Of a stretch of DNA of 64,000 nucleotides, positions 8,572 to 24,844 are shown one piece after another; within the stretch, counting starts at the first letter, position 1, and the number at the start of each line of letters is the position of its first letter. Source of the stretch: Microbacter margulisiae (GTDB lineage: Bacteria > Bacteroidota > Bacteroidia > Bacteroidales > Paludibacteraceae). The position numbers were made by a program, and so were the translations under genes. The stretch is from assembly GCF_014192515.1 (NCBI RefSeq), contig NZ_JACHYB010000001.1, positions 1,178,001 to 1,242,000 on the forward strand, given 5' to 3'. Under the pieces are notes generated by a model. The model was given only the letters and a program-made list of their open reading frames with translations. It was not told where the DNA came from and did not search any database.

Positions 8572-8600
8572 TTGTTTCTAATAATAAAACATTACCTTTG
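8572..8600 (+). promoter_or_regulatory. Promoter P1 of the Ehr-like operon
   Basis: TTG at 8572-8574 and TACCTTTG at 8593-8600 are separated by 18 bp. Confidence 0.65.
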
Positions 8601-8629
8601 CACCATAAAAGAGAAAGACATTACATTTG
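8597..8629 (+). promoter_or_regulatory. Promoter P2 of the Ehr-like operon
   Basis: TTTG at 8597-8600 (part of the P1 -7 box) and TACATTTG at 8622-8629 are 21 bp apart. The two promoters overlap and would give starts about 29 bp apart. Confidence 0.55.
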
Positions 8630-8768
8630 TATATCCGTTTTATTTTCAGAAATATACATCTATATAAAAACGACATAATACTTCCAAACAATCTCTTTTC
8701 AGCATTACATTGAAATATTTTTTTAACAACAAGGTTTTAATGGATGCTCTAATCACTTCTGTCTAAAC

Positions 8769-10796
8769 ATGAATCCTGTTGCACTGATTCTTTCCGTTGT
8801 TTTTATTGTTTTGGTGTTTATACCTTTTACAAAAAAAAGGACGACACAAACCCTACTAATAGCCTGTGAGTTTTTTATTTTTTGCTTCAGTGGTTTCTTT
8901 GCAATAGAAGCTTTAACCGGACAATCAACCTCATATATTCTGATCGGATCAATCGTTACTGGCAATATTCCTATTGTTATTGATCCTTTAGCTGCCTGGT
9001 TTATCCTACTGATCAATTTTACTTTTCTTACAGGCTCCATTTACGGAAACAGTTACATGAAGGCTTACGCAGATCGCAAACACCAACTTTCATTACACTG
9101 GATCAGTTACTTATTGTCACATATAGGATTGTTGGCTGTCTGCGTGGTACAACACATGCTGATATTTTTGTTCGTCTGGGAAATTATGGCGCTCAGTTCA
9201 TTTATCATGGTGATTTTTGAAAGTGAAAAATCACAAACCATAAAAGCCGGAATCAATTATTTAATACAATCCCACATTGGCATTTTACTCCTGACTATTG
9301 GCTTCGGATGGGTATATGTAGAAACAGGCTCATGGTCGTTTGACGCTATTAAACTTTTCGGGCAAACCGGATCACTGCTTGAAGCATTTGGGCTAATGCT
9401 ATTGTTTTTTGCTGGATTTTCATTCAAAGCCGGTTTTGTGCCTTTTCATACTTGGCTGCCACAGGCACATCCTGCTGCTCCTGCACATGTATCGGGAGTG
9501 ATGTCAGGAGTATTAATCAAAATTGGGATTTATGGTATTTTGCGTATGTTGTTATTATTGCCGAATAACACGATTGAGATTGGTATCGTCATTCTTATTA
9601 TATCCATAATTACAGGAATTTATGGTGTCATGCTGGCCATTGTACAACATAATCTGAAGACACTTTTAGCATACCATAGCATTGAGAATATAGGCATTAT
9701 CGGGATTGGGATCGGAGTCGGCTGTTTAGGGTTGGGCTTAGGAAATGAACCTATGGCAGCTATTGGATTCGCAGGGGCACTATTACATACGCTTAACCAT
9801 TCATTATTTAAGTCAGTACTGTTTTACGGTGCAGGCAATGTATATCAAGCCACTCACAGTGTTAATATTGAATCATTTGGAGGATTAATTAAACGAATGC
9901 CTCATACCGCTTTCCTTTTTCTGATTGCATCGTTGGCCATTAGCGGACTGCCACCGTTTAACGGATTCATCTCAGAATTTCTGATTTATTCCGGATTAAT
10001 CAACGGATGGAGTCACGGCACATTTATTTATATCCTTATTTTTGCTTTTGCGGTTTTTGGACTTTCATTAATAGGCGGACTAGCAATTCTGTGTTTCACC
10101 AAGGCCTTCGGTACAATTTTCTTAGGATCTCCCCGCCAAACATTCGCCCAAGAACCTCAGGAAAGTTCTCGTATGGCATTAATTCCAATGTATATCATTA
10201 TCGCATTGATCATCGCCATAGGTGTTTTCCCAAGTATTTTTGTAAAGGCTCTGTGGTTACCGGTACAACAATTCACAGGAAATATGCATGAAAATGCTTT
10301 TACCTTTTCGCCTTCGTTACTTAGCATTGCACAACAAATAGGAATTGCATCGCTTATATTTATGGCGTTAACAGGTTTTATATGGTTTATCCGTTATCAA
10401 TTAACGAAAAGACAAACCGTCACTTGTGCGGAAACCTGGGGATGTGGTTATATTGCTCCTACCCCGAAGATGCAATACACAGCAAGCTCATTTGTAAGAA
10501 CCTACCGAAAATTAGCTGAACCCATATTGCTCTTTCAAAAGCACAAAAAGGAAGTTTCGGGCATTTTCCCTCATGAAGCTTTTCATTCAATACATTCATT
10601 AGACAGGGTCGAAATGTATCTGATTCATATGCCATTGAAAAGAATGCGGTTCTGGCTAAATCGATTTTCATTTTTACAAAACGGCAGCCTACAATTCTAT
10701 ATTTTATATGGATTGTTGTTTATCATTATATTGATTGCAGTTCCTTCGCTGGAATATCTTTATCATATTCTGGCTCACTTTTTAAATATCCTTTAA
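8769..10796 (+). CDS. Ehr-like complex, HyfB-type proton-conducting antiporter subunit
   Basis: This 675-residue multi-pass membrane protein is related to HyfB and to NuoL/M/N. The residues that carry protons in the family are present: Glu138 (FVWEIMA), Lys220 (FKAGFVPFHTWLPQAHP) and Lys251 (LIKIGIYG), plus NHSLFKSVLF near residue 345. The C-terminal CAETWGCGY segment and the extended tail are typical of HyfB rather than NuoL. It opens a tight six-gene operon. From homology it should form an ion channel at the distal end of the membrane arm. The start is the ATG after a short AAAC spacer; no good Shine-Dalgarno site is visible, as is common in this phylum. Confidence 0.88.
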   Translation: MNPVALILSVVFIVLVFIPFTKKRTTQTLLIACEFFIFCFSGFFAIEALTGQSTSYILIGSIVTGNIPIVIDPLAAWFILLINFTFLTGSIYGNSYMKAYADRKHQLSLHWISYLLSHIGLLAVCVVQHMLIFLFVWEIMALSSFIMVIFESEKSQTIKAGINYLIQSHIGILLLTIGFGWVYVETGSWSFDAIKLFGQTGSLLEAFGLMLLFFAGFSFKAGFVPFHTWLPQAHPAAPAHVSGVMSGVLIKIGIYGILRMLLLLPNNTIEIGIVILIISIITGIYGVMLAIVQHNLKTLLAYHSIENIGIIGIGIGVGCLGLGLGNEPMAAIGFAGALLHTLNHSLFKSVLFYGAGNVYQATHSVNIESFGGLIKRMPHTAFLFLIASLAISGLPPFNGFISEFLIYSGLINGWSHGTFIYILIFAFAVFGLSLIGGLAILCFTKAFGTIFLGSPRQTFAQEPQESSRMALIPMYIIIALIIAIGVFPSIFVKALWLPVQQFTGNMHENAFTFSPSLLSIAQQIGIASLIFMALTGFIWFIRYQLTKRQTVTCAETWGCGYIAPTPKMQYTASSFVRTYRKLAEPILLFQKHKKEVSGIFPHEAFHSIHSLDRVEMYLIHMPLKRMRFWLNRFSFLQNGSLQFYILYGLLFIIILIAVPSLEYLYHILAHFLNIL

Positions 10797-10803
10797 AGAG
10801 ATC

Positions 10804-11712
10804 ATGATTAGCTTCATTGTTATCATTGTTACAAGCCTGTTTATTTCAGGTATTATTGTCCGTACTAAAAGCATTTGCTCGGGACGTAAAGGTTCAGGTA
10901 TTATGCAGCCCATGAGAGATATTCTTAAATTATGGAAAAAAGGATCTGTTTACAGCCATACATCCAGTTGGATTTTTCGTATTGCTCCAACCGTTTATTT
11001 TTCATCTATACTAATGGCTGCAGCCGCTTTACCTTTGGGAGGACATTGTGGGCTGTTTTCATTTGATGGTGATTTTGTGTTTTTTGCCTATGTGTTAGCC
11101 ACCGGGAAATTTTTTAATATTATTGCCGCATTAGATACCGGTAGCAGTTTTGAAGGCATGGGGGCAAGCCGCGAGGCTCTATTCTCAATGCTTGCAGAAC
11201 CCGCTTTCTTTCTATTAATGGGGTCGTTAAGCCTCTTAACAGGCTATACCTCCTTCAATGCTATTTTTCAAGCATTGCATTTCGGCTCTTACATTACGTA
11301 TGCGCTAACTGCCATTGCTACCTTTATTCTGCTTATGCTTGCCATGATTGAAAACAGTCGCATGCCCATAGATGACCCCAAGACTCATCTGGAATTGACG
11401 ATGATTCACGAGGTAATGATCTTGGATAACAGTGGCTTTGATCTTGGGCTTATCTTTCAAGCAACGAATTTCAAATTTGTTATTTACGGAGCTTTAATTG
11501 CCAATATGTTTTTAGGTAATTTACCTTTATATGACGCCATTCCCATGTTTTTGGGCATTCAGGTAGTATTTGGCATTTGCATCGGGCTGATCGAATCCTT
11601 TATGGCACGTTACCGGATGACCCATAACGCTCAATTTGTACTGATCTTATCCTCATTATCTTTATTAGTTCTGTTTGGAGTTTTGATGTTGCTGAATAAA
11701 TTTAATTCATAA
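10804..11712 (+). CDS. Ehr-like complex, HyfC/NuoH-type membrane subunit
   Basis: The 302-residue membrane protein belongs to the complex I subunit 1 / HyfC family, which couples the soluble arm to ion translocation. The diagnostic segment around residues 185-202, IDDPKTHLELTMIHEVM, is intact, including the acidic residues of the E channel. The N-terminal PMRDILKLWKKGS also matches HyfC. It follows the HyfB-like gene by 7 bp and precedes the HyfE-like gene by 4 bp, so translation is probably coupled. It is distinct from the nuoH gene in the adjacent nuo operon. Confidence 0.88.
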   Translation: MISFIVIIVTSLFISGIIVRTKSICSGRKGSGIMQPMRDILKLWKKGSVYSHTSSWIFRIAPTVYFSSILMAAAALPLGGHCGLFSFDGDFVFFAYVLATGKFFNIIAALDTGSSFEGMGASREALFSMLAEPAFFLLMGSLSLLTGYTSFNAIFQALHFGSYITYALTAIATFILLMLAMIENSRMPIDDPKTHLELTMIHEVMILDNSGFDLGLIFQATNFKFVIYGALIANMFLGNLPLYDAIPMFLGIQVVFGICIGLIESFMARYRMTHNAQFVLILSSLSLLVLFGVLMLLNKFNS

Positions 11713-11716
11713 TAAG

Positions 11717-12346
11717 ATGACAAATATTCTGTTGATTGTCTTCATTATATCGCTTCTCTATTTTGCCATTGCCAATCGATTGATGACTTATGTCAAGATA
11801 TTGGCATTACAGGGAATTTTATTGTTTGGAGTTGCTTTCATTGAATTAATTGAAATCAATATCATAAATTTAATTTTCATTCTTTTTGAGACTATCGTTG
11901 TCAAAGCTATTGCTATTCCGTTGTTTATGCGATATATCATCAAGAAGAACAAAATCACCCGGGAAGCCGAACCTTATGTTCCCTATTTTGTTTCTTTGAT
12001 CGTAATTACTGCAATTATCGTAGTAACCTTTTTTATAGGCAACTATATTCAGGAGCCGAATCTGAATAAGATATACTTCATCGCTGCATTATCAGCTCTT
12101 GTTAGCGGTTTGTATTTTATCAGTACCCGACGAAAGATCATTACCCACGTCATTTGCTATGCAATGATTGAAAACGGCGTATTTATTTTATCTCTGGCGG
12201 TAGGACACAACATGCCCATGCTGGTTAATCTGGGAATTTTACTGGATGTTTTCGTCAGCATCTTTCTCCTTGGCATGTTTGTCAATAAAATAGGCGACGT
12301 CATTAACGAAAGCGATGTCACTCAGTTAAGTAACATAAAAGATTAA
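11717..12346 (+). CDS. Ehr-like complex, HyfE-type (NuoK-related) subunit
   Basis: The protein has 209 residues and about six to seven membrane helices. It resembles hydrogenase-4 component E, whose core is NuoK-like (for example YAMIENGVFILSLAVG, with a membrane Glu near residue 151). Such subunits link NuoH-like and antiporter-like subunits. It lies 4 bp after the HyfC-like gene and 11 bp before the next antiporter gene. Weak primary-sequence conservation is normal for this family; the assignment rests on that motif and on gene order. Confidence 0.8.
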   Translation: MTNILLIVFIISLLYFAIANRLMTYVKILALQGILLFGVAFIELIEINIINLIFILFETIVVKAIAIPLFMRYIIKKNKITREAEPYVPYFVSLIVITAIIVVTFFIGNYIQEPNLNKIYFIAALSALVSGLYFISTRRKIITHVICYAMIENGVFILSLAVGHNMPMLVNLGILLDVFVSIFLLGMFVNKIGDVINESDVTQLSNIKD

Positions 12347-12357
12347 AAGGTACATCG

Positions 12358-13785
12358 ATGACTCTATTCTATTTGGCAGGTTCCATTTTATTGGCAGGCG
12401 CTTTATTCCTCAATCGCAATGCTTTAATAAATAAGACATTGGTAATTATATTTTTATTATTACAAGTCTGTTATACAGCTTTTCTTGTTATATATCAAAA
12501 TTGTAGTGATGCAATCTATTTCAAATCAGATGCTTTGGCAATCTTAATGACAGGTACACTGACTATCATTGCCATTCCTGCTTTATTGCATCGGTATGAC
12601 TACGTTTACAAAGAACAGGATTCGCCGGCCAACAGAGGCATGTATTATGGAGCTATGGTTATATTTATCATGGCTTTAACTGCCGGCTATACCGCATCGC
12701 ATATTGCCGTAACATGGATTTTTGTCGAAATTACTACGTTAAGTACTTCAGTATTAACTTTTCACAGGCGCAATGCCGGATCCATAGAAGCCACATGGAA
12801 ATATATTTTCGTCTGCTCCATTAGTTTGGTATTCGTTTTTATAGGTATTTTGCTCTTAAGTCTGGCCATGAACAACGAATATCAAGCGGGCATGCAATAT
12901 AGCACACTTGTACAACTGGCGCCATCACTTGATCCTTTCTGGTTGAAGCTAGCTTTTATCTTTATTTTTACTGGATATACAGCTAAATTAGGATTAGTTC
13001 CCATGTACACAGCCGGCATTGATGCCAAAGATAAAGCCCCGGCTCCGGCGTCAGCTCTTTTTTCAAGTGTATTAATGAATTTAGGTTTTGTCGGAATCTT
13101 ACGCATGTACATAATCACAGAGCACGCTTCCATTCACGCATGGGTTAACGCAATTATCCTCATTACAGCGTTACTTTCCATATTCGTAGCTACTGTTTAT
13201 TTGCTAAAAGTCAGAAATATAAAACGAATGCTAGCCTATTCAAGCATTGAGCATATGGGAATTGTTATGGTAGGAATAGGCACAGGAGGAATAGGCTATT
13301 ATGCTGCTATTTTGCAATTAATTTTACATTCTTTTGTCAAATCGTCTCTATTCCTGCAGGTCGGACATCTTTACAAAACCTTCAAGAGTAAAGAAATCTT
13401 CTCCATTGGCAATTACTTCAAATACAATACCCCGGGAGCAGTTTTTCTGTTGTTGGCATTTATTGGTATAGCGGCTATACCTCCATCAGGATTGTTTATA
13501 AGTGAATTTTATCTGGTACTTGCGTTAATACAAGCACACCAATGGTTTGTTCTGATTCTCATATTAATATTGCTGACCATTATTTTATGGACATTAGGAA
13601 AAAACGTATTCAAAATATTATTCGTTCCACCATTAGGTTTTAATCCTAAAAACATAGAAAAAGGGAATGGATATGAGACTTTATCACATTATTTGCTGCT
13701 CGGATTAACCGTATATCTGGGATTTTGTCCGCCACAAGGATTCGTCAATTTAATTCAATCGGTTGTTCATTCAATTACATTCTGA
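12358..13785 (+). CDS. Ehr-like complex, HyfF-type antiporter subunit
   Basis: This 475-residue, about 14-helix protein is related to HyfF and NuoN/M. Glu124 (WIFVEITTLS) and Lys210 (GYTAKLGLVPMY) occupy the expected proton-path positions, and a third lysine lies in HSFVKSSLF near residue 328. The DAKDKAPAPASALFSS segment replaces the more usual DAHAxAPxPVSA but keeps the Pro/Ser pattern. It is the second antiporter-like subunit of the complex, suggesting at least two ion channels in addition to the NuoH-like one. It ends one base before the large-subunit gene. Confidence 0.87.
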   Translation: MTLFYLAGSILLAGALFLNRNALINKTLVIIFLLLQVCYTAFLVIYQNCSDAIYFKSDALAILMTGTLTIIAIPALLHRYDYVYKEQDSPANRGMYYGAMVIFIMALTAGYTASHIAVTWIFVEITTLSTSVLTFHRRNAGSIEATWKYIFVCSISLVFVFIGILLLSLAMNNEYQAGMQYSTLVQLAPSLDPFWLKLAFIFIFTGYTAKLGLVPMYTAGIDAKDKAPAPASALFSSVLMNLGFVGILRMYIITEHASIHAWVNAIILITALLSIFVATVYLLKVRNIKRMLAYSSIEHMGIVMVGIGTGGIGYYAAILQLILHSFVKSSLFLQVGHLYKTFKSKEIFSIGNYFKYNTPGAVFLLLAFIGIAAIPPSGLFISEFYLVLALIQAHQWFVLILILILLTIILWTLGKNVFKILFVPPLGFNPKNIEKGNGYETLSHYLLLGLTVYLGFCPPQGFVNLIQSVVHSITF

Positions 13786-13786
13786 A

Positions 13787-15283
13787 ATGCACGCAATTGT
13801 CATAAAAAATTACCAACGTATTCCCTTTTCAGCCATCCCGGCTTTGCCTTATGAACTTTTTGTTCCGGTTATTCTGGAAGAACTGATGATTGACGACTCG
13901 TGCCATTGTGTTAATTATGTTGGATTTCCACATAATGACAAGGTTCAATTGATTTGTTGTATTGCCAATGACAAACAACACACCATTTATGTCACATCAA
14001 CCATTGTAACACTTAATGCAACATTACCTTCACTGACAGCTCATAAACTCGCCTTTCACATTTTTGAGCGGGAACTTAATGAACAATTTGGAATTCAATA
14101 CACTGATCATCCTTGGCTAAAACCAGTACGTTATTCTTTCAATCGATCGGATCTGAATAAAACAATTGCCAATTATCCGTTTTATTCCATTGAAAGCGAA
14201 GAGCTCCATGAAGTCGGAGTAGGCCCAATTCACGCAGGAATCATCGAACCAGGCCATTTTCGATTTATCTGTAATGGAGAACAAATCTTGCATCTGGAAA
14301 TTCAATTAGGATACCAGCATCGCGGTATTGAATCCCTGTTTGTGGAGAAAAAGAAAATTCTGCAACGAGCAACATTAGCCGAAAATATAGCCGGCGATAC
14401 AGTAATTGGTCATGCTTCAACTTTTGCCCGTGTTTGGGAAAGTTTATGCGAAACAGCTGTTTCTCCCGCATTGCAGCTTGAGCGTACCTTAGCGTTAGAA
14501 CACGAGCGAATCGCCATTCATACCGGTGATTTAAGCGCCATGTGTACTGATTTGGCTTATCAATTAGGCAGTTCCGTTTTCGGGCGACTACGCACGCCTA
14601 TCATTAATTATTTTCAGGAGTGGACAGGTAATCGATTTGCTAAAGGATTAATACGTCCTAATAAAACCAATTTTACTTTTACCAAAGAGTTAGCGACACG
14701 ATGGCATGAAGTAATTTCAAAATTTGAACCCGATTTTATTGAAATGTATGACATGCTTTCGGATCTACCCTCGGCATTAGCTCGAATGGAAAAGACAGGA
14801 ATTGTCAATAAAGAAACAGCTCAAACAATCGGTATGGTCGGCATGGCAGCCCGTGCAAGCGGATTGACCCGAGACATTCGCATGTCACATCCCGAAGGAT
14901 GGACTACCATTTCCCATCAACCGGTTATAAAACGACATGGTGACGTTTTCTCGCGCGTTCAGATACGAAAAGAAGAAGCACTCCAATCCATTCAATATAT
15001 CAGACAAATCATTGAATTATTGCCAGATGCTGATAAAGGTATAACAGAAGAAAAAGATGCTTTGCCAGACTCTTTTGTTATTGGATTAACAGAAGGATGG
15101 CGTGGCGAAATTTGTCACTGTGCCATAACAGATAAAACCGGCAATTTGCAATGTTATAAAATAAAAGATCCATCTTTACATAATTGGTTGGCATTAGGAC
15201 TGGCTGTACGTAACAACGAAATATCGGATTTCCCGATTTGTAATAAAAGCTTTGATCTCTCATATTGCGGTAACGATCTGTAA
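13787..15283 (+). CDS. Ehr-like complex, NuoCD/HyfG-like large subunit lacking NiFe ligands
   Basis: The 498-residue soluble protein joins a NuoC-like N-terminal domain (about residues 1-120) to a NuoD/hydrogenase-large-subunit domain. LGYQHRGIESLF (residues 174-185) anchors the alignment. The L1 hydrogenase motif CGxC is replaced by Ala202-Gly-Asp-Thr205 in ENIAGDTVIGHA. The L2 motif near the C-terminus is SFDLSYCGNDL, where the two cysteines align with Ser492 and Gly495. All four nickel-iron ligands are thus missing and hydrogenase activity is very unlikely. I chose ATG 13787, just after the previous stop, over the upstream TTG at 13763. The catalytic role and any electron acceptor are unknown. 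Confidence 0.85.
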   Translation: MHAIVIKNYQRIPFSAIPALPYELFVPVILEELMIDDSCHCVNYVGFPHNDKVQLICCIANDKQHTIYVTSTIVTLNATLPSLTAHKLAFHIFERELNEQFGIQYTDHPWLKPVRYSFNRSDLNKTIANYPFYSIESEELHEVGVGPIHAGIIEPGHFRFICNGEQILHLEIQLGYQHRGIESLFVEKKKILQRATLAENIAGDTVIGHASTFARVWESLCETAVSPALQLERTLALEHERIAIHTGDLSAMCTDLAYQLGSSVFGRLRTPIINYFQEWTGNRFAKGLIRPNKTNFTFTKELATRWHEVISKFEPDFIEMYDMLSDLPSALARMEKTGIVNKETAQTIGMVGMAARASGLTRDIRMSHPEGWTTISHQPVIKRHGDVFSRVQIRKEEALQSIQYIRQIIELLPDADKGITEEKDALPDSFVIGLTEGWRGEICHCAITDKTGNLQCYKIKDPSLHNWLALGLAVRNNEISDFPICNKSFDLSYCGNDL

Positions 15284-15308
15284 TATTGCTATTAATTCAC
15301 ACAAGACA

Positions 15309-16061
15309 ATGTTTAATAATTTAAAAATACTCCATCACCAAGGAAAACAATTTATTCCCGATGTTACTAAAGCTGAAGCTGCTGGCATTTTCAGAGGACG
15401 ACCCGTTATTAGTAAAGCAAGTGTGAATACAGAAACACTGACTGAACTTTGCCCAACAAGTGCCATCACAACAAATCCCGTTTCAATTGATTTAGGGAGA
15501 TGTACTTTCTGTGGCGAATGTGCCATTCAATTCCCCGAAAAAATCCGGTTTACCAAAGATTATAAATTATCATCGAACACTCGCAATCAATTAATCATAG
15601 AAGAAGGAATTGAGCAACCTATTACTCTTGATGCTGATAAGATTCGAAAAGAAATCCGAAGATTATTTCATCATTCATTGAAATTACGACAAATATCAGC
15701 AGGGGGAGACAATAGTTGCGAATGGGAATTGAACGCCGTAGGCAATGTCAATTTTGATATAGGACGTTTCGGTATAGAATTTGTCGCCTCTCCGCGACAT
15801 GCTGATGGGATTGTTATCACCGGACCCATTACACAAAGCATGGCAAAACCATTGGAACTTTGCTACAAAGCTGTTCCTGATCCTAAAATCATTATTTTAG
15901 CTGGGGTTGATGCCATCAGTGGAGGTATTTTTGAAGAAAGCCATGCATTAGACCGTTCATTTCTTGTACAATATCCAATTGATTTGTACGTTCCAGGTAA
16001 TCCGGTTCATCCACTCACTTTCATTAACGGTATCATTCAACTGATTGGTTTAGAATCTTAA
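15309..16061 (+). CDS. Ehr-like complex, ferredoxin-NuoB fusion with degenerate N2 site
   Basis: The 250-residue protein fuses a ferredoxin-like segment (residues 40-85) to a NuoB/HyfI-like domain (115-245). In the ferredoxin part Cys48 (ELCP) plus Cys65, Cys68 and Cys71 (CTFCGEC) could hold one [4Fe-4S] cluster; the second cluster's ligands are gone. In the NuoB part only Cys137 (DNSCEWE) remains. The GAC cysteine is Asp201 (GVDAISGG) and the PGC cysteine is Asn231 (VPGNPVHP). A proximal N2-type cluster of normal ligation is therefore unlikely. The ATG at 15309 is preferred to an upstream start at 15252 that would overlap the previous gene. It is the last gene of the operon. Confidence 0.84.
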   Translation: MFNNLKILHHQGKQFIPDVTKAEAAGIFRGRPVISKASVNTETLTELCPTSAITTNPVSIDLGRCTFCGECAIQFPEKIRFTKDYKLSSNTRNQLIIEEGIEQPITLDADKIRKEIRRLFHHSLKLRQISAGGDNSCEWELNAVGNVNFDIGRFGIEFVASPRHADGIVITGPITQSMAKPLELCYKAVPDPKIIILAGVDAISGGIFEESHALDRSFLVQYPIDLYVPGNPVHPLTFINGIIQLIGLES

Positions 16062-16172
16062 TAAAATGCCACATGGACATTGCAGTTTCGAACAATAAAA
16101 TTAAATAATCAAAAAATATGGGCTTTTTTCAATGTCAAAAAATAGCAGCATCTAAATAACTTACAACTACTT

Positions 16173-16195
16173 AATCTATATATAAAGATTTTTTT
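16173..16195 (+). terminator. Weak A/T terminator after the Ehr-like operon
   Basis: AATCT (16173-16177) can pair with AGATT (16186-16190), followed by T residues. The stem is only five A/T-rich pairs, so read-through into nuo is possible. Confidence 0.3.
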
Positions 16196-16240
16196 CAATA
16201 ATACGAAGGTTCGTTAATAGTAAATAATCGTTTAATTGAC

Positions 16241-16248
16241 TACCTTTG
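16241..16248 (+). promoter_or_regulatory. -7 element of the nuo operon
   Basis: TACCTTTG, identical to the P1 -7 box of the Ehr-like operon, lies 25 bp before nuoA. The -33 region is poor. Confidence 0.55.
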
Positions 16249-16273
16249 CACTCTCTAAAAACAAGGATCAATT

Positions 16274-16624
16274 ATGGGACCAGCATCTCTTATCGTACTG
16301 TTATTCATAGCAATAGCATTTGCTATCATTGCCGTATACATCGGCAGAATTTTTGGAACATCATCTACTAATCCTGTAAAAGGAGAACCGTACGAATGTG
16401 GAATTGAAACCAAAGGAGAAACCTGGGTTCAGTTTCACATCGGATACTATTTATTTGCCCTTTTATTTTTAGTATTTGACGTAGAAATTGTTTTCCTATT
16501 TCCCTGGGCAACCGTTATACGTGAGTTAGGCGTTGTTGCTTTTATTGAAATATTTCTTTTCACGCTGTTCCTCTTTTTGGGACTTTTATATGCATATAAA
16601 AAGAAAGCACTCTCATGGATGTAA
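16274..16624 (+). CDS. nuoA: NADH-quinone oxidoreductase subunit A
   Basis: NuoA is a three-helix membrane subunit at the junction of the arms of complex I. The 116-residue protein shows [16 protein letters not shown] in the loop with the conserved cysteine, then [15 protein letters not shown] in the second helix. Both are hallmarks of the family. It opens an 11-gene operon, nuoABCDHIJKLMN. Its last codons overlap the nuoB start by 10 bp. Confidence 0.96.
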
Positions 16625-17172
16625 AAAAAGAATATATTCCCGAATTCGACGGGGATGCTTATAAAGATGACATGGGAAGAACGAGTTTTATTCTCACTTC
16701 CGTAGATGCCATTGCCAATTGGGGTCGAAGCAATTCATTATGGCCTTTATCATTTGGAACAAGTTGTTGTGCTATCGAACTGATGAGTACAGTTTCAGCA
16801 AAATATGACTGGTCTCGTTTTGGATTTGAAGTAATGCGTGCCAGCCCCCGCCAATGTGATCTGATTATCGTTGCTGGAACCATCACACACAAAATGGCTC
16901 CGGTTCTTAAACGTCTTTATGACCAAATGCCCGAACCACGTTATGTGATTGCAATGGGAGCTTGTGCAGTGTCAGGCGGACCTTTTTATTATAACTCATA
17001 CGCTGTTGTTCGTGGCGTTGATAATGTAATTCCAGTTGATGTCTACATTCCAGGATGTCCTCCGCGTCCTGAGGCATTGATTCATGGCATGATGACGCTA
17101 CAGGAAAAAATCAGAAAATCCAAAGCATACGTTATCGATAAACCTAAAAAAAAGAAGGACAACAATGACTAA
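16615..17172 (+). CDS. nuoB: NADH-quinone oxidoreductase subunit B
   Basis: NuoB carries the terminal N2 [4Fe-4S] cluster that reduces quinone. All four ligands are present: Cys51 and Cys52 (GTSCCAIE), Cys117 (GACAVSGG) and Cys148 (PGCPPRPE). The 185-residue length is normal. It overlaps nuoA by 10 bp and nuoC by 8 bp. It contrasts directly with the degenerate NuoB-like subunit of the upstream Ehr-like operon, which keeps only one of these cysteines. Confidence 0.97.
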
Positions 17173-17620
17173 AGAGGAACTCAAACACTATCTCGGGGTT
17201 ACCTTCCCAAACCTGGAAGTGAAAGAGACATTCAATTTCCCACTGTTAATCGTGAATAAAGAAGATGTCATCGAGGTGCTGTCCAAGTTGAAGACAGCCA
17301 CTGAAACAAAATTTAATTTTTTGTTTTGTGAGACTGCTGTCGATCGAAATCCAAACTTTGAAGTTGTTTATCACCTATCCTCCACTTACTATCATCATGA
17401 TTTAGAGGTAAAAGTGATTCTGGAAGATAGAGAGAATCCTGAAATTGATTCCGTTTACGGGCTTTGGGAAGCTGCTGATCTATATGAAGATGAAATTTAT
17501 GATATGTTTGGCATTCGTTTCAAAGGTCATCCTAACCTTCGCCGGATTATGCTTACCGATGAATGGAATGGATTTCCACTACGAAAAGATTACCAAGATG
17601 ATAAAATTATTTCCTTGTAG
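17165..17620 (+). CDS. nuoC: NADH-quinone oxidoreductase subunit C
   Basis: The 30-kDa subunit of the soluble arm, 151 residues, includes the signature segment [20 protein letters not shown] and ends in FPLRKDY, both typical of NuoC. It packs against NuoD. It overlaps nuoB by 8 bp and is followed by nuoD after 11 bp. Some Bacteroidota fuse nuoC and nuoD; here they are separate genes. Confidence 0.95.
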
Positions 17621-17631
17621 CCTATTAGTCA

Positions 17632-18759
17632 ATGGAAAATCAATCTAACCAAAAACCAAACGAACTAAGAACGGAAGAGTTCGTTGTCAATATTGGGCCA
17701 CAACACCCTGCAACACATGGAGTATTACGCATTGAAGCAACTCTTGACGGAGAAATAGTAAAGAACGTTCAGCCTCATTTGGGCTACATCCATCGTGGTA
17801 TTGAGAAAATGACAGAATCGATGCCTTATAAACAATCGATTTTTCTAACCAGCCGGATGGATTATCTGTCCGCCCACATCAATAACCACGCCTGCTCTTT
17901 GGCTATTGAAAATGCCCTCGGTATTGAAGTGCCAGCCCGTGCAAAAGCCATTCGAATCATCATGGATGAATTGCAACGTTTAACATCACATGAATTGTGG
18001 TGGGGTTCGTGTGCAATGGATATTGGGGCTGTTACACCTTTCTTTTTAGGATTCCGTGACCGGGAACGTATTCTGGAAATTTTTGAAGCTAATACAGGAA
18101 ACCGTCTTACAATGCACTACATTGTACCTGGCGGGGTTATGCGCGACGTACTATCCACATTTGTCACGGACGTCAAGGAATTGCTCAAGAAAATCAAAGG
18201 TTACCGGCATGAATATGATCAATTGATTACCGGCAACTACATTTTTCAACACCGGACACAAGGCGTTGGATATCTTTCAAAAGAACAAGCCATCTCATTA
18301 GCCTGTTCAGGTCCGGTTGCACGCGCCTCAGGAGTAAGCTGCGATATTCGAAAACTTCATCCTTATGATGGTTATGAGAATCTGGATTTTAAAGAAGTAA
18401 TCGATTATGGTTGTGATAACTGGGCACGTTATGTCGTTCGGATGGAAGAGATGAATCAATCCATTCATATCATCGAACAATTATTGGATAACTTTCCAAC
18501 AGGAGACTACCGGACAAAAATTAAAGGGATCATCAAGCTGCCTGAAGGAGAATATTACCAACGTGTTGAGACGGCTCGCGGCGAATTGGGAGTTTATATC
18601 GTTGCCGATGGTAGCAACAAACCTTACCGTATGAAATTCCGTACGCCTTCCTTTTCAAATCTTGGCGCAGTGAACCCTACAACAGTAGGCCTAAAAATTG
18701 CCGACTTAATGGCAAACATGTCGACCATCGATTTGGTAATTCCTGATATTGACCGATAA
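17632..18759 (+). CDS. nuoD: NADH-quinone oxidoreductase subunit D
   Basis: The 49-kDa quinone-site subunit has 375 residues. It starts with the quinone-site loop GPQHPATHGVLR (residues 23-34), which holds the quinone-site histidine, then LGYIHRGIEK near residue 51. As in all complex I the hydrogenase cysteines are absent, and it ends in the normal IVIPDIDR. The final codons precede nuoH, whose ATG is 11 bp beyond the nuoD stop. Confidence 0.97.
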   Translation: MENQSNQKPNELRTEEFVVNIGPQHPATHGVLRIEATLDGEIVKNVQPHLGYIHRGIEKMTESMPYKQSIFLTSRMDYLSAHINNHACSLAIENALGIEVPARAKAIRIIMDELQRLTSHELWWGSCAMDIGAVTPFFLGFRDRERILEIFEANTGNRLTMHYIVPGGVMRDVLSTFVTDVKELLKKIKGYRHEYDQLITGNYIFQHRTQGVGYLSKEQAISLACSGPVARASGVSCDIRKLHPYDGYENLDFKEVIDYGCDNWARYVVRMEEMNQSIHIIEQLLDNFPTGDYRTKIKGIIKLPEGEYYQRVETARGELGVYIVADGSNKPYRMKFRTPSFSNLGAVNPTTVGLKIADLMANMSTIDLVIPDIDR

Positions 18760-18769
18760 AACAGAGCAT

Positions 18770-19867
18770 ATGATTTCAATGATTCAGTTTACAGATATTA
18801 CAGCTTGGATTCACACCCTTTTGCTGAGTGTTATGTCTCCAACGTGGACATATGTTGTTGAATTAATATTATCCGGTGTGACTGCATTGGTAGTATTGTT
18901 AGTTTGTGTTATCATCATGGTATACATGGAACGCAAAGTAGCTGGGTTCATGCAGCTTCGCTGGGGTCCAAATCGGGTTGGTCCTTATGGACTTTTTCAA
19001 GTTATTGCCGATGTCATCAAACTTTTATTGAAAGAAAGTTTTTCGCCAAATCGAGCGGATAAAATCATGTTCAATATTGCTCCTGCATTGGCGTTATGTG
19101 TTTCTCTGATGGCTTTAGCCCCGATATCGTGGGCGCCTGGGTTAACCATGTGGGATACTAATATAGGAGTCTTGTTCATTACTGCTATTTCTTCGATGGG
19201 TGTCATCGGAATTATGATGGCCGGATGGTCAAGTAACAATAAATACTCATTACTTGGCGCTATGCGAAGCGGAGCTCAAATTGTCAGTTATGAGCTTTCG
19301 GCCGGTTTATCCATTGTAACTGCCGTAGCTCTTGCTGGCACACTGTCAACAAATGGCATCATCGCATCCCAAGCCAATGGGTGGTGGATCATTAAAGGAC
19401 AAATTCCTGCGATTATCGCATTTCTGGTTTACATTATAGCGAGTACAGCCGAATGTAACCGAGCACCATTCGATTTAGCAGAAGCAGAATCAGAGCTTAC
19501 AGCAGGTTATCATACCGAATATGCCGGTATGCAATTTGGTATTTTCTACTTGAATGAATACATCAACATGGCAGTTGTTGCAATTATAGCTTCTACCCTG
19601 TTCCTCGGTGGTTGGATGCCATTCCACTTGCCATTTGATTATCCTATTGTACAAACGTTTAACCATATAATGGACTTTATTCCCACATGGATATGGTTCT
19701 TTGGAAAAATGTTCCTAGTCATTTTCTTTATGATGTGGTTCCGTTGGACATTCCCTCGCTTACGGATTGACCAATTGTTGAAGCTGGAGTGGAAATATTT
19801 GTTGCCCATTAGTATTGTCAACTTACTGTTTGCCGCATTAATTATCATATTACATTGGCATCTGTAA
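18770..19867 (+). CDS. nuoH: NADH-quinone oxidoreductase subunit H
   Basis: NuoH is the membrane subunit that forms most of the quinone tunnel and links to the ion channels. The protein has MERKVAGFMQLRWGPNRVGP near residue 48 and AEAESELTAGYHTEYAGM near residue 242, both signature segments. It has 365 residues from ATG 18770. An in-frame TTG at 18749 would overlap nuoD by 11 bp, and a later ATG lies at 18779. A 111-bp gap separates it from nuoI, the largest gap inside the operon. Confidence 0.95.
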   Translation: MISMIQFTDITAWIHTLLLSVMSPTWTYVVELILSGVTALVVLLVCVIIMVYMERKVAGFMQLRWGPNRVGPYGLFQVIADVIKLLLKESFSPNRADKIMFNIAPALALCVSLMALAPISWAPGLTMWDTNIGVLFITAISSMGVIGIMMAGWSSNNKYSLLGAMRSGAQIVSYELSAGLSIVTAVALAGTLSTNGIIASQANGWWIIKGQIPAIIAFLVYIIASTAECNRAPFDLAEAESELTAGYHTEYAGMQFGIFYLNEYINMAVVAIIASTLFLGGWMPFHLPFDYPIVQTFNHIMDFIPTWIWFFGKMFLVIFFMMWFRWTFPRLRIDQLLKLEWKYLLPISIVNLLFAALIIILHWHL

Positions 19868-19978
19868 TTTTTTGTCTGTAATATCAAATGAGGCAAATGA
19901 ATAAATAGATTGAATAAAGCATACCCGTTTGAAACCGGGAACTTTCTTCAGACTCGAATAATAAATTAATAACAAAAG
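19868..19978. other. 111-bp spacer inside the nuo operon
   Basis: Between nuoH and nuoI. CCCG and CGGG flank an A/T loop at about 19924-19938, a weak hairpin with no T run. No coding potential or promoter is evident. Confidence 0.4.
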
Positions 19979-20482
19979 ATGAGAGCACTTTTCAACTATA
20001 TTAAGGAGGTTGTTTATGCCTTCGTGTCGTTGGCCAAAGGGTTATTATTGACTCTTCGCTACTTTGTCACCATCAAGAAAGTGAACATCACCGAAGAGTA
20101 TCCCGACAACAGAACAACTACAATTAGCGTCAAAGAGAGATTTTATGGCGAAGTTGTTTTGACGCACGACGAAAACAACGAACATAAGTGCACAGCTTGT
20201 ACATTGTGCCAAATTGCATGTCCCAATAATTCAATTCAGATTATTTCAAAACAAGTTGAAACAGAAGATGGAAAAAAGAAACGTGTTTTGGACAAATGGA
20301 TTTATCACCTGGATATGTGTACTTTTTGCTATCAATGTATTGATGCTTGCCCACAAGATGCCATTGAAATGAAAAATTCATTTGAATTAAGCGTTTATGA
20401 TCGCAGCAAGTTAGTTCGTCAATTGAATCGTCCTGGTTCTAAATTAAAAGAAAAACCGACCGTTAAAGAGCAACAATCATGA
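19979..20482 (+). CDS. nuoI: NADH-quinone oxidoreductase subunit I (two [4Fe-4S])
   Basis: This ferredoxin-like peripheral subunit passes electrons to NuoB. Two complete cluster motifs are visible: Cys71, Cys74, Cys77, Cys81 (CTACTLCQIACP) and Cys114, Cys117, Cys120, Cys124 (CTFCYQCIDACP). The N-terminal amphipathic stretch (LAKGLLLTLRYFV) fits membrane association. The protein has 167 residues. Its stop overlaps the nuoJ start as ATGA. With nuoE, F and G missing, NuoI would be the electron entry point for an external donor. Confidence 0.96.
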   Translation: MRALFNYIKEVVYAFVSLAKGLLLTLRYFVTIKKVNITEEYPDNRTTTISVKERFYGEVVLTHDENNEHKCTACTLCQIACPNNSIQIISKQVETEDGKKKRVLDKWIYHLDMCTFCYQCIDACPQDAIEMKNSFELSVYDRSKLVRQLNRPGSKLKEKPTVKEQQS

Positions 20483-21021
20483 ATGCATCCACAGTAATAT
20501 TTTATGTTTTGGCCATTTTAGTGCTCACTTTCGGAGCAATGACCGTTTTTACGCGCAAAATTTTCAGAGCTGCCATTTATTTGTTGTTTTCGCTTATTAG
20601 TGTTGCTGGCATCTATTTGCTATGGGGAATGGATTTTGTCGCTGCGTTACAAATCATTATCTATGTAGGAGGTATAGTAGTATTAATCATTTTCTCTATT
20701 TTACTAACGCAACGTGCAGGAGACAAACTGCCACCTCCAATTAAGAGTAGGCTTCTCGGTGCAGGAATTTTATCCGTTGCGGGATTAGGCTTTACTTCAT
20801 GGATAGTGTATAATTATCTGTTTACATCATCTAACTTGCCCGCCATTGAACCTTCCGTTCATAATATAGGAAAGCAGATGCTAAACTATACTCAATTTGG
20901 ATACGTATTTCCATTTGAAGTCATCAACATCTTATTGCTGGCAGCATTAGTTGGAAGTATAGTGATTGCTATGAAGAAAAAAGAGGAAAAATCAACTAAC
21001 GATACCAATCAAACCAAATAA
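20479..21021 (+). CDS. nuoJ: NADH-quinone oxidoreductase subunit J
   Basis: The 180-residue, five-helix membrane subunit has the conserved third helix pattern AALQIIIYVGGIVVLIIF near residue 55, which in complex I undergoes the pi-bulge transition. A lysine-rich tail ends the protein. It starts in a 4-bp overlap with nuoI and is 11 bp before nuoK. Confidence 0.95.
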   Translation: MNASTVIFYVLAILVLTFGAMTVFTRKIFRAAIYLLFSLISVAGIYLLWGMDFVAALQIIIYVGGIVVLIIFSILLTQRAGDKLPPPIKSRLLGAGILSVAGLGFTSWIVYNYLFTSSNLPAIEPSVHNIGKQMLNYTQFGYVFPFEVINILLLAALVGSIVIAMKKKEEKSTNDTNQTK

Positions 21022-21032
21022 ATAAACAGAAT

Positions 21033-21347
21033 ATGGAACAAGTTCCTTTATCACATGTTCTTATTTTAAGTTCTGCTCTTTTCTTTCTGGGGGTTTACGG
21101 ATTTTTTTCACGTCGTAACATGATTACGATGCTTATGTCCATTGAACTTATATTGAACAGTGTCAACATTAATTTTATAGCGTTCAACAAATATCTGTTC
21201 CCGCATCAACTGGAAGGTGTATTTTTCACCATGTTCATTATCACAGTAGCTGCGGCTGAAGTATCAATATCGATTGCTATTATTATAAATCTGTATCGTC
21301 GATTCAAAACCATTGACATTGAAGATACGACAACGATGAAGTATTAA
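21033..21347 (+). CDS. nuoK: NADH-quinone oxidoreductase subunit K
   Basis: The 104-residue, three-helix subunit contains the membrane glutamates of the family in MLMSIELILNSVNINF (near residue 38) and in VAAAEVSISIAI (near residue 75). Length and topology are standard. It is 2 bp from nuoL, implying coupled translation. Confidence 0.96.
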   Translation: MEQVPLSHVLILSSALFFLGVYGFFSRRNMITMLMSIELILNSVNINFIAFNKYLFPHQLEGVFFTMFIITVAAAEVSISIAIIINLYRRFKTIDIEDTTTMKY

Positions 21348-21349
21348 AT

Positions 21350-23287
21350 ATGAACAGTTACGATTTATCATCCTTATTAATTGTGGGGTTGCCTTTGCTG
21401 AGTTTTACCCTGATTATTTTACTCAGCAAACGAATGAAGCCTGGTATCGCTGGGCTCATTGGCACACTTACACTTGCCACAACGGCTATTTTGGCTTTTT
21501 ATGTTGCCGCAGGTTATTTCTTTGGATTTGGACCAGAAGCCGGTTCATATGTACATCATATTGCTTTGCAGTTTCAATGGCTAAAATTCTCAGATAATCT
21601 TTCCATCGATTTGGGTATCGTGCTTGATCCTATTTCCGTAACACTCTTATTAGTCATTACCATCGTGTCAACGATGGTGCATCTGTACAGTCTGAACTAT
21701 ATGCATGGCGAGGAATATTTCGCCCGTTATTATGCATATCTTTCCCTCTTTACTTTTTCAATGATAGGGTTGGTTGTAGCTGTCAACATTTTCCAAATGT
21801 ATATATTTTGGGAATTGGTTGGTGTATCATCCTTTTTACTGATTGGATTCTATTTTACCAAACCATCAGCAATCGCAGCAGCGAAGAAAGCATTTATAGT
21901 AACGCGTTTTGCCGATTTAGGGTTTCTAATTGGGATTTTGATATTAAGCCATGGGGCAAAAACACTTGACTTCTTTGTAATGATTCAACGTCTTACTGAA
22001 GCCGGATCACCATATCTTGCCCACTTTACCGCTACTTCGTTCATGGGATTATCCACCCTGACATGGGCTTTACTTCTTGTGTTCATGGGAGGCGCCGGAA
22101 AATCGGCTATGTTTCCGTTACATATCTGGCTGCCCGATGCAATGGAAGGCCCAACACCTGTGTCGGCTTTGATCCATGCAGCCACGATGGTTGTTGCCGG
22201 TGTTTATTTGGTTGCCCGTTTATTCCCTATTTACGCTATATCAGCTCCTGATGCGCTGCATATCATAGCCTATATCGGAGCTTTTACGGCTCTTTTTGCG
22301 GCAATTATCGCGTGTACACAAACTGATATTAAACGGGTGCTGGCCTACTCCACTATTTCTCAGATTGCCTATATGATGTTTGCGCTGGGTGTTGCCGGAT
22401 GGAGTGAAGGACAAACAGAAGGCTTTACTGCCTCAATTTTTCACCTTTTTACGCATGCCTTCTTTAAAGCTTTATTGTTCTTAGGTGCGGGTGCTATCAT
22501 CCACGCTATAAATAGTAACGAAATGGAAGATATGGGTGGCTTGAGGAAGGCTCTGCCTATCACACATATTACTTTCCTTGTGGCATGTTTATCCATTTCC
22601 GGTATTCCTCCTTTTTCCGGTTTTTTCAGTAAAGAAGCAATTTTGTCAGCAGCATCTCATAGCAATCCTTTAGTATATTACATTGGAGTATTCACCAGCG
22701 GACTGACTGCATTCTATATGTTCAGGCTTTACTTCCGGATTTTCTGGTATAAACCGGTAAGTGATCATCATAATCACGAAAAACATACATGGGCAATGAA
22801 TACGGCTCTCCTCGTGTTAGTACTTGGCGCCGCTTTTGCAGGTCTCATTCCATTCGGATCATTTGTAAGTGCAACAGGAGCTCCGATTATACTGCCTTTC
22901 CATCCTGCATTCTCTGTATTGCCTGTTTCTCTGGGATTGCTTGGAATCATCCTCGCTTATCTCTTCTTTTATAAGGAATCCGACAAAGCAGAAAAAGCAG
23001 TTGGCTATTTCAAAGGATTTTATCAGGTAGCTTACCACAAATTCTATATCGACGAGATTTATTTATTTGTCACCAAAAAAATTATTTTCAATTTGGTTGG
23101 GCGACCTGCCGCTTGGTTTGACCGCACAGTAGTCAATGGCATTTTAATTAATGGGACAGCTACTGTAACCGAGGTTACTTCAAAAACCATCAAGCCGATG
23201 CAATCAGGGAAAGTTCAGGAATATGCCATGTATTTTCTGGGTGGCGCGCTTCTTCTTGTCGCTTTATTATTCATTCAATTTATGTAA
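21350..23287 (+). CDS. nuoL: NADH-quinone oxidoreductase subunit L
   Basis: This is the most distal antiporter-like subunit, 645 residues, with a C-terminal lateral helix. The key segments are present: YIFWELVGVSSFLL (channel Glu), GAGKSAMFPLHIWLPDAM (channel Lys) and HAFFKALLFLGAGAI. The C-terminal part (residues 545-600, with KFYIDEIYLFVTKK) carries the long amphipathic helix typical of NuoL and absent from NuoM/N. It is followed after 6 bp by nuoM. Confidence 0.96.
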   Translation: MNSYDLSSLLIVGLPLLSFTLIILLSKRMKPGIAGLIGTLTLATTAILAFYVAAGYFFGFGPEAGSYVHHIALQFQWLKFSDNLSIDLGIVLDPISVTLLLVITIVSTMVHLYSLNYMHGEEYFARYYAYLSLFTFSMIGLVVAVNIFQMYIFWELVGVSSFLLIGFYFTKPSAIAAAKKAFIVTRFADLGFLIGILILSHGAKTLDFFVMIQRLTEAGSPYLAHFTATSFMGLSTLTWALLLVFMGGAGKSAMFPLHIWLPDAMEGPTPVSALIHAATMVVAGVYLVARLFPIYAISAPDALHIIAYIGAFTALFAAIIACTQTDIKRVLAYSTISQIAYMMFALGVAGWSEGQTEGFTASIFHLFTHAFFKALLFLGAGAIIHAINSNEMEDMGGLRKALPITHITFLVACLSISGIPPFSGFFSKEAILSAASHSNPLVYYIGVFTSGLTAFYMFRLYFRIFWYKPVSDHHNHEKHTWAMNTALLVLVLGAAFAGLIPFGSFVSATGAPIILPFHPAFSVLPVSLGLLGIILAYLFFYKESDKAEKAVGYFKGFYQVAYHKFYIDEIYLFVTKKIIFNLVGRPAAWFDRTVVNGILINGTATVTEVTSKTIKPMQSGKVQEYAMYFLGGALLLVALLFIQFM

Positions 23288-23293
23288 TCAACA

Positions 23294-24790
23294 ATGGATA
23301 TCGTACAATTATTAATTATTCTACCGATTGTAACTTTACTCGGGATGATTGTGGCTAAAAAAGAGCTGCATATTAAAAGTGTAGCTTTAGCCGGGAGTTC
23401 CCTCCAATTAATTCTAGCCATTATACTAACTACCTTGTATGTGCAGATGCGTCAGGCAGGGGCTATTGCTCCTTATTTGTTTCAAAGTAGTTATGTGTGG
23501 TTTGCACCGTTGAAGATTTATTTCACATCGGGTATTGACGGCATCTCATTGGTGATGATTTTAATGACAGCTTTGGTTGTACTTTCCGGAGTACTGGTTT
23601 CCTGGAAGATCAACAAACAGGTAAAAGAATTTTTCTTTCTGCTCATCCTGTTGAGTTTAAGTGCATACGGATTCTTCATGACAACGAATCTTTTTGCCAT
23701 GTTCTTCTTCCTCGAACTGGCTGTTATTCCAAAATTCCTGTTGATCGGGATGTGGGGTAGCGGACGAAAAGAATACAGTTCAATGAAACTAGCTTTGATG
23801 CTAATGGCAGGTTCTGCACTGGTTTTTCTGGGCATGATCGGGTTGTTCTATGAATCAGGAATGCAATCCTGGGACATTCAGGATATAGCCAGGCTCAATA
23901 TTCCTATTGCAACCCAACGTGTGCTCTATTTATTGCTGTTTACAGGATTTGGAGTTTTCACAGCCATGTTCCCGTTCCATACATGGGCACCTGACGGACA
24001 CTCATCGGCACCAACAGCTGCCTCAATGTTCCTGGCCGGTATTTCCATGAAACTTGGAGGTTATGGCTGTTTACGGGTAGCCACATATTTATTACCGGGC
24101 GCTGCACAGGAACTTTCATGGATATTTATCATCCTGGCATCCATTGCCATTATTTACGGAGCTTTTGCTACTATGATGCAAAAGGATCTCAAGTATATGA
24201 ACGCATATTCGTCCGTAAGTCACGTAGGATTTATCATACTTGGTATTGCCATGCTGACCAAGGTTGCCATCACAGGGGCAGTCATGCAAATGGTATCGCA
24301 CGGTATTATGACAGCACTTTTCTTTGCTGCTATCGGCATGATTTACGACCGGGCACATACACGACAAGCGAATGAACTGGGGGGGATGTTGAAACAAATT
24401 CCTTTTATTGGTGCTGCTTTCATTGTTTCAGGGTTAACTTCCCTCGGATTGCCTGGTTTTAGCGGGTTCGTTTCGGAAATGACAATTTTTGTAGGATCAT
24501 GGGAACATGCCGGTATATTTTATCGGGTTGCCACCATTTTAGCAGCAGCGTCGATTGTGGTAACAGCCGTTTACATTTTGCGTGCAGTTGGATTTGCCAT
24601 CTGGGGATCTATCACCAATAAAGAATTTTTGAAATTGAAAGATGCTACATGGAGTGAAAGAACAGCCACCGTGCTTTTAGTACTTGGCATTTTACTTATT
24701 GGTCTTGCTCCATTCCTGTTTGTACGGTTGATCGATATGGATACTACCACGATTTATCAAAAACTGATTTCGGGAGTGCTTGTTCACTGA
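23294..24790 (+). CDS. nuoM: NADH-quinone oxidoreductase subunit M
   Basis: The 498-residue antiporter-like subunit has FFFLELAVIPKFLLIG (channel Glu), MFPFHTWAPDGHSSAPT and KLGGYGCLRV (channel Lys), and AYSSVSHVGFIILG. These match NuoM. It lies 6 bp after nuoL and 54 bp before nuoN. Confidence 0.96.
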   Translation: MDIVQLLIILPIVTLLGMIVAKKELHIKSVALAGSSLQLILAIILTTLYVQMRQAGAIAPYLFQSSYVWFAPLKIYFTSGIDGISLVMILMTALVVLSGVLVSWKINKQVKEFFFLLILLSLSAYGFFMTTNLFAMFFFLELAVIPKFLLIGMWGSGRKEYSSMKLALMLMAGSALVFLGMIGLFYESGMQSWDIQDIARLNIPIATQRVLYLLLFTGFGVFTAMFPFHTWAPDGHSSAPTAASMFLAGISMKLGGYGCLRVATYLLPGAAQELSWIFIILASIAIIYGAFATMMQKDLKYMNAYSSVSHVGFIILGIAMLTKVAITGAVMQMVSHGIMTALFFAAIGMIYDRAHTRQANELGGMLKQIPFIGAAFIVSGLTSLGLPGFSGFVSEMTIFVGSWEHAGIFYRVATILAAASIVVTAVYILRAVGFAIWGSITNKEFLKLKDATWSERTATVLLVLGILLIGLAPFLFVRLIDMDTTTIYQKLISGVLVH

Positions 24791-24844
24791 TCAAAAACAA
24801 ATCCTGTTATCATCCCAATTATAACATCGTAAACACATAAATAA

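Follow-up and report, generated by a model that had tools for sequence, protein, structure and literature searches.

A six-gene operon in a 64,000-nucleotide stretch of the Microbacter margulisiae genome (contig NZ_JACHYB010000001.1, positions 1,178,001 to 1,242,000; the whole stretch is referred to as the window) encodes a membrane complex of the energy-converting-hydrogenase-related (Ehr) family, which, as judged from sequence comparison, very probably combines a conserved ion pump with a pocket free of metal ligands, no ligands for the proximal [4Fe-4S] cluster and one isolated cluster site. By its aligned residues the complex departs from the average Ehr: most Ehr complexes examined keep the proximal [4Fe-4S] cluster, while the sub-clade of the window appears to have lost it. 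Regarding the mechanism, we give about an even chance to the reading that this six-subunit member of the complex I superfamily has had its electron relay dismantled, and that its ion movement would not be redox-driven at the pocket.

An earlier, sequence-only reading of the window had described six Hyf-like genes in one operon with gaps of 1-25 bp, Ehr-like in identity and missing the NiFe site. The gene arrangement is confirmed, with six intact open reading frames (ORFs) on the + strand at 8769-16061 and intergenic gaps of 7, 4, 11, 1 and 25 bp, and the identity is supported by the gene set and by the residues reported below.

Iron-sulfur sites of HyfI

When HyfI of the window is aligned with HycG of the Escherichia coli formate hydrogenlyase (FHL), the four ligands of the proximal (N2-type) [4Fe-4S] cluster, C48, C51, C115 and C145, fall on D134, C137, D201 and N231. 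A frameshift or sequencing error behind this change was considered and rejected, as in the listed homologues (120 of 7996 matches) these positions read DCDN in 118, DCDD in one and DNDN in one. A broader set of 118 distinct loci other than Nuo, from many phyla, consists of 88 CCCC, 28 D-x-D-N (DxDN: 23 DCDN, 3 DNDN, 1 DADN and 1 DSDN), one TDES on an Allomeiothermus plasmid and one NEEW in a metagenome-assembled genome (MAG) of the Planctomycetales; the set was partly drawn with DxDN and Variovorax queries, and its proportions are no census. Within the 88 CCCC loci, the large subunit of L023 is truncated (347 aa). Position 137 varies among C, N, S and A, so that C137 is dispensable, and D134, D201 and N231 are fixed in all 28 DxDN loci. 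Indeed, C134D, C201D and C231N are the sole fixed differences in HyfI between the 28/28 DxDN proteins and the 81/81 CCCC proteins with the ferredoxin-like domain.

In the ferredoxin-like domain fused to HyfI, the full ligand set of one [4Fe-4S] cluster is retained (Table 1); we take this cluster to be N6b-type, next to N2, by ferredoxin logic. The outer cluster of the same domain has no complete ligand set in the window. Counted by cysteines, it is incomplete in 20/20 thinned Bacteroidota DxDN rows and also in Allomeiothermus, and complete in 53/73 CCCC rows. The sequence-only reading had the soluble arm stripped of metal ligands, which is right for the NiFe, proximal and outer-cluster ligands and wrong for the complete set C48/C65/C68/C71. 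In the window's clade the predicted wire is thus without entry and exit clusters, one isolated four-cysteine site being left.

NiFe site and pocket of HyfG

The NiFe ligands are missing as well. In alignment with E. coli HycE/HyfG, the ligands C241, C244, C531 and C534 of HycE correspond to A202, T205, S492 and G495 of HyfG, and the four cysteines of the group 4 [NiFe] hydrogenases are accordingly not present. Cysteine stands at any of these positions in 0/120 listed homologues, and the motifs RxCGxC or DPCxxC occur in 0/124 paired large subunits; a restoration of the ligands by frame or sequencing error, which the sequence-only reading had raised, did not come up. No NiFe large subunit scores above the family cut-off in the window genome, where the single weak match falls within nuoD.

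The residues around the empty site are nevertheless kept. The proton-handling residues E154 (HycE E193) and R439, the canopy arginine (HycE R478), are present in 120/120 listed homologues, and H149, E154, H157, R159, D204, N486-S488, S492, Y493 and D497 in 28/28 DxDN and 79-81/81 CCCC proteins. HyfG shows four softer differences between the two groups, with the pocket signature equally conserved, and the C-terminal NKS-type signature is found in 119/124 paired large subunits, the exceptions being 4 Nuo rows and 1 CCCC row. HycE E193 has been placed on the proton route of FHL (PMC9474812).

The Ehr family is defined, in the available text, by absence of NiFe-binding CxxC motifs from the large subunit. 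The window's operon has the HyfB/C/E/F/G/I-type set and no such CxxC; what it lacks is the proximal-cluster ligands, which are usual in the Ehr complexes compared here though outside the family definition.

Ion path of the membrane subunits

The channel residues listed by the sequence-only reading, Glu138, Lys220 and Lys251 of HyfB and Glu124 and Lys210 of HyfF, are as stated. They are kept in 25/25 DxDN complexes and, in CCCC complexes, in 70/70 (E138), 71/71 (K220), 71/73 (K251), 66/68 (E124) and 68/68 (K210), counted where the residue is aligned. Position 241 of HyfF (13078-13080), the third of its positions and that of the middle antiporter Lys, is Asn, not Lys, as in 23/25 DxDN and 45/68 CCCC proteins; K251 of HyfB is Lys. 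In HyfC the acidic residues E124, E132, E183, D190, D191, E197 and E203, which by homology presumably have the E-channel role, are conserved in both groups. Between DxDN and CCCC, HyfC and HyfE have 0 group-specific positions, and a single one (A to G) is found in each of HyfB and HyfF. Since the four membrane subunits hardly differ, the machine seems to be constrained alike with or without the proximal cluster.

An additional antiporter-like gene of about 660-680 aa was observed upstream of HyfB in the DxDN loci L145, L164, L167 and L171 (also L166 and L170), as well as in some CCCC loci, e.g. L068 and L088; such loci would give three antiporter-type subunits.

Phylogeny and distribution of the loss

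Before tree building near-copies were removed (129 to 106 rows), and rows shorter than 380 aa (L133, L023, L037, L208) and two rows mispairing nuoB with HyfG were left out. In the concatenated HyfG+HyfI tree (FastTree) the Bacteroidota DxDN complexes are monophyletic at 0.998, with a CCCC sister (G101/L010) at 1.0; HyfG alone gives 0.907 (CCCC sister 1.0) and HyfI 0.962. The CCCC sisters G836, G842 and G845 also join beside this clade. Among Planctomycetales, 11/45 genomes matched, comprising 6 lost-type (NEEW, NEDW, DACS, DESF, DADN and a truncated DAS-) and 5 CCCC, and L205 within this order converged independently on D-A-D-N. The HyfG tree, with 25 lost rows of 106, needs 5 changes, 4 of them forced by starred branches. 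With the ligand columns removed, the HyfI tree places the losses in three groups, the four Planctomycetales losses forming one clade (0.976). A single origin of the loss is rejected (delta lnL 307, p-AU 2e-33). On these trees the proximal cluster was lost at least three times, in Bacteroidota, Planctomycetales and Allomeiothermus.

The window's complex lies within a group of 98 ferredoxin-domain-type Ehr (SH-aLRT 99). As to a placement within active group 4 hydrogenases, which the sequence-only reading had named as the contrary outcome, the 104 Ehr rows do exclude E. coli HycE/HyfG, the sole active hydrogenases in the tree, but at this deepest split the support is a weak 0.26.

In a phylum sample 15/395 genomes match at E<=1e-90 (2 DxDN, 13 CCCC), and in a class sample, which overlaps with it, 16/395 at E<=1e-60 (15 DxDN, 1 CCCC). 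Of the relatives 8/61 have Ehr, including 4/8 genus members, and all are DxDN; the operon is an accessory trait. Oxygen tolerance was tried as a cause of the loss and rejected: COX1 (PF00115) is present in 18/26 DxDN, 4/4 lost-type Planctomycetales and 21/21 cluster-bearing genomes, so the loss does not track haem-copper oxidase by this marker (the search did not extend to bd oxidase).

Plasmid NC_014213.1 of Allomeiothermus silvanus has two identically scoring cluster-less HyfI (T-D-E-S) at 21491-22249 and 247249-248007 (L003, L175, L176), and a Variovorax plasmid (L002) has tandem Ehr-type operons at 4845-12129 and 15541-21368, the first with a ferredoxin-domain HyfI and full proximal-cluster ligands.

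Gene models and genome context

Table 1. Features of the Ehr operon and its neighbour, in window coordinates
Feature	Coordinates	Strand	Remarks
HyfB-like antiporter subunit	8769..10796	+	675 aa; E138, K220, K251 conserved
HyfC/NuoH-like membrane anchor	10804..11712	+	302 aa
HyfE-like subunit	11717..12346	+	209 aa
HyfF-like antiporter subunit	12358..13785	+	475 aa; E124, K210 conserved; position 241 Asn
HyfG-like large subunit (NuoC+NuoD fusion)	13787..15283	+	498 aa, ATG start
HyfG E154 codon	14246..14248	+	beta1-beta2 loop Glu = HycE E193, kept
HyfG A202..T205	14390..14401	+	positions of NiFe ligands HycE C241, C244
HyfG S492..G495	15260..15271	+	positions of NiFe ligands HycE C531, C534
HyfI-like small subunit, N-terminal ferredoxin-like domain fused	15309..16061	+	250 aa, ATG start
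HyfI C48, C65, C68, C71	15450..15521	+	full ligand set, one retained [4Fe-4S] (= HycF C50, C75, C78, C81); no outer-cluster ligands
HyfI D134 and C137	15708..15719	+	positions of HycG C48, C51
HyfI D201	15909..15911	+	position of HycG C115
HyfI N231	15999..16001	+	position of HycG C145
nuoABCDHIJKLMN operon (neighbour, outside complex)	16274..26248	+	212 bp downstream of HyfI

For HyfG and HyfI we use the ATG starts, which agree with the database entries P0121 (498 aa) and P0001 (250 aa), in place of the upstream TTG starts of the ORF list at 13763 and 15252. Family models identify two subunits as Proton_antipo_M, HyfC as NADHdh, HyfG as Complex1_49kDa plus 30kDa and HyfI as Oxidored_q6; for HyfE both the Oxidored_q2 match and the NCBIfam HyfE model stay below cut-off. 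The AlphaFold models of HyfG (pLDDT 82) and HyfI (pLDDT 84) have as closest solved structures HycE and HycG of FHL, the best matches being chains E and G of 7z0s. The nearest organism-named homologues, 74-75% identical, come from Microbacter sp. MAGs.

The window genome comprises 2 contigs (completeness 100% by tool). Within the genus, a dihydrolipoamide-dehydrogenase-like gene and an ABC ATPase precede the operon, and the nuo operon follows it downstream; the adjacency of ehr and nuo recurs in the congener G399 and, at a contig edge, in G396. The window's nuo operon is without nuoE, F and G, and the genome has 0 PF00384 matches, hence no NuoG of that family. A promoter and terminator scan of the gap between ehr and nuo was uninformative. 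In four congeners without Ehr the context upstream of nuo is different (8-12 kb fetched), from which nothing follows. On the - strand of the window, two adjacent long ORFs at 46258-48717 and 49223-51931 (819 and 902 aa) have very similar translations and by eye resemble outer-membrane TonB-type proteins.

For gene partners, 123 loci were inspected (not de-duplicated; L056 = L211). The DxDN operon is usually self-contained, and no conserved partner gene was found in the 28 DxDN loci inspected; PtsN-like, SulP and PaaE-like genes are partial companions. Two gene-caller families, L056:7602-8597 (23 loci) and L117:11180-12256 (18 loci), have no Pfam/NCBIfam match and are probably shadow ORFs, as 24/25 and 20/20 of their members are antisense ORFs inside the span of the operon.

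Discussion

If the relay is dismantled as proposed, electrons would no longer arrive at the HyfG pocket fast enough to be of use, because the relay of FHL proceeds in steps of <14 Å and passes through the proximal cluster (PMC9474812). The former cavity of that cluster would be occupied by Asp, Asp and Asn; some losses place Trp or Phe there (NEEW, DESF), a poor fit to a preserved metal site. Ion movement would then be driven or gated by something besides redox chemistry at the HyfG pocket, possibly by the swap of one cation gradient for another, or by ligand or proton chemistry in the former active-site pocket, and the lone [4Fe-4S] cluster might hold the fold or act as a redox sensor. Antiporter modules by themselves are able to conduct protons (PMC11496545). 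The sequence-only reading spoke of a pump without an obvious redox engine; the total absence of an engine is what we infer.

Several observations weigh against this reading. The four-cysteine set of the lone cluster is retained in 120/120 listed homologues, and electrons may therefore still matter. The outer cluster is complete in 4/4 lost-type Planctomycetales tree rows, so the relay has not been dismantled identically everywhere. The AlphaFold models cover HyfG and HyfI as single chains, from which distances between clusters are not obtainable, and a quick IQ-TREE run gives the Bacteroidota DxDN grouping a support of just 74. Lastly, in three species of one DxDN genus (L160, L163, L165) a PaaE-like NADH/FAD/2Fe-2S reductase, a possible electron donor, is encoded on the same strand, 32-51 bp downstream of the end of HyfI.

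The strongest alternative is that the complex is still a redox-driven pump, in which the D/D/N site binds another metal, or electrons leave the lone cluster with a soluble partner and reach a substrate along a different path. In its favour are the constancy of D134 and D201 (120/120) and N231 (119/120) in the listed homologues, the convergent D-A-D-N of L205, the retained ligands of the lone cluster and the PaaE-like gene. Yet a strict metal site would not be expected to vary at position 137 or, in other losses, to have W, F or S as its fourth residue; the outer cluster, which would take up the electrons, is incomplete as well, and no PaaE-like reductase stands beside the window's operon. We regard this alternative as rather improbable.

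Two further proposals are special cases of the dismantled-relay reading. The first is a cation:proton antiporter, or an osmotic or pH homeostasis complex of Mrp-like logic, with PtsN-like control in relatives. A gene joining HTH_17 and PTS EIIA (PtsN-like, e.g. L068:2177-2881) is found at 39/134 loci, and in 24/123 it forms part of the operon run and precedes the antiporter genes, all 24/24 with the cluster intact. This hints at K+/H+ physiology, because PtsN of E. coli is an inhibitor that binds the K+/H+ antiporter YcgO (PMC11808508), and the ion-path residues of HyfB and HyfF are kept. The PtsN-like gene is, however, in 0/28 DxDN operon runs (some cut by contig ends), and the operon showed no small subunits of Mrp type, so we hold this proposal to be unlikely. 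The second is that CO2/bicarbonate, or some other small anion, undergoes vectorial chemistry in the HyfG pocket, with proton flow coupled to it. DAB2 offers a precedent, as it couples a complex-I-like proton-conducting subunit to non-redox chemistry, the hydration of CO2 (PMC13144422). A SulP anion transporter occurs in 9/123 operon runs, of which 1 is DSDN (25 bp gap), 4 belong to the closest cluster-bearing sister clade and 4 to others, with a porin-like gene (weak ExtI match) after it in 5 of the 9. The SulP of L157, the one that was scanned, scores higher with the DauA model (531 bits) than with that of BicA (266 bits), both below the NCBIfam cut-off. Moreover, no SulP stands beside the window's operon, and no DabA-type carbonic-anhydrase subunit is among the six operon proteins (no genome-wide search was made). 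This chemistry seems to us more doubtful still.

We consider it quite improbable that the complex is a relic in decay, or that it serves the neighbouring complex I as a partner in assembly. The nuo operon does adjoin in the window's own genus, the presence of Ehr in just 4/8 genus members and 8/61 relatives could speak of decay, and a 2026 Geobacter paper holds the Ehr of that organism to be non-functional (PMC13194489). Against it, the replacements are fixed and the ion path and pocket conserved over 28 loci, and HyfI dN/dS is low, at ~0.07-0.08 against two congeners (dS 1.9-2.2, near saturation; computable for HyfI alone). Outside the genus, moreover, the DxDN flanks that were fetched yielded no relative of NuoA or NuoC of the window. 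Finally, a Mo/W formate dehydrogenase as the electron source, an idea put forward for Margulisbacteria and also suggested in the case of Geobacter (PMC6349859, PMC7894505), can practically be dismissed for this organism, unless the gene has escaped the assembly or the search: some PF00384 (molybdopterin oxidoreductase) protein occurs in 14/26 DxDN genomes, but 12/26 have none, the complete window genome offers no candidate, and the proximal cluster is absent.

Compared with known systems, the window's complex shares with the Ehr complexes of Geobacter, Nitrospira, Margulisbacteria and the candidate phyla radiation (CPR) the gene set and order, the missing NiFe ligands and the NKS-type signature; 88/118 non-Nuo loci keep the proximal [4Fe-4S] cluster, whereas the window's sub-clade has D-x-D-N together with an incomplete outer ferredoxin cluster. 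FHL and hydrogenase 4 of E. coli (Hyc, Hyf) are the closest solved relatives by sequence and fold, the equivalents of E193 and R478 being kept; unlike them, the window has no NiFe ligands, no proximal cluster and no separate HycB/HyfA or HycF/HyfH subunit, but a one-cluster ferredoxin-like domain fused to HyfI. With complex I (Nuo), whose operon adjoins, it shares the architecture of Q-module and P-module, but it has no N2 ligands, and G203 of HyfG replaces the aligned Tyr of NuoD (Y78 of the window's NuoD), which we take to be a quinone-site residue. The sulfane sulfur reductase MBS of Pyrococcus (alias Mbx) is likewise NiFe-free with antiporter subunits. In MBS, catalysis takes place at the proximal cluster, which is bound by three Cys (PMC7684303), while the window has at most one of the four proximal Cys left; an MBS-like reaction does not fit, because the proximal cluster is absent.

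The literature searched, in its available parts, gives no description of a proximal-cluster loss in Ehr; Marreiros 2013 and Coppi 2005, reportedly the comparative papers naming the family, lie outside that scope, and priority is uncertain. The function of Ehr is described as unknown or uninvestigated (PMC10284858, PMC4378227, PMC7894505), and the DxDN family may point to a job for these complexes. How electron arrival at N2 is coupled to distant proton pumping is a long-standing question on complex I. Here a natural family appears to have kept the pump and the pocket residues while the N2-type cluster was removed at least three times, and its cluster-bearing relatives, with three fixed HyfI differences, provide a matched control, by which the need for redox at the site becomes directly testable. 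It is possible, though we say so tentatively, that these complexes form a widespread, repeatedly evolved class of the complex I family that translocates ions without a redox cofactor at the coupling site, the fixed Asp-Asp-Asn serving as a proton/cation switch. If this were true, the long-range coupling of complex I would work without electron transfer at N2.

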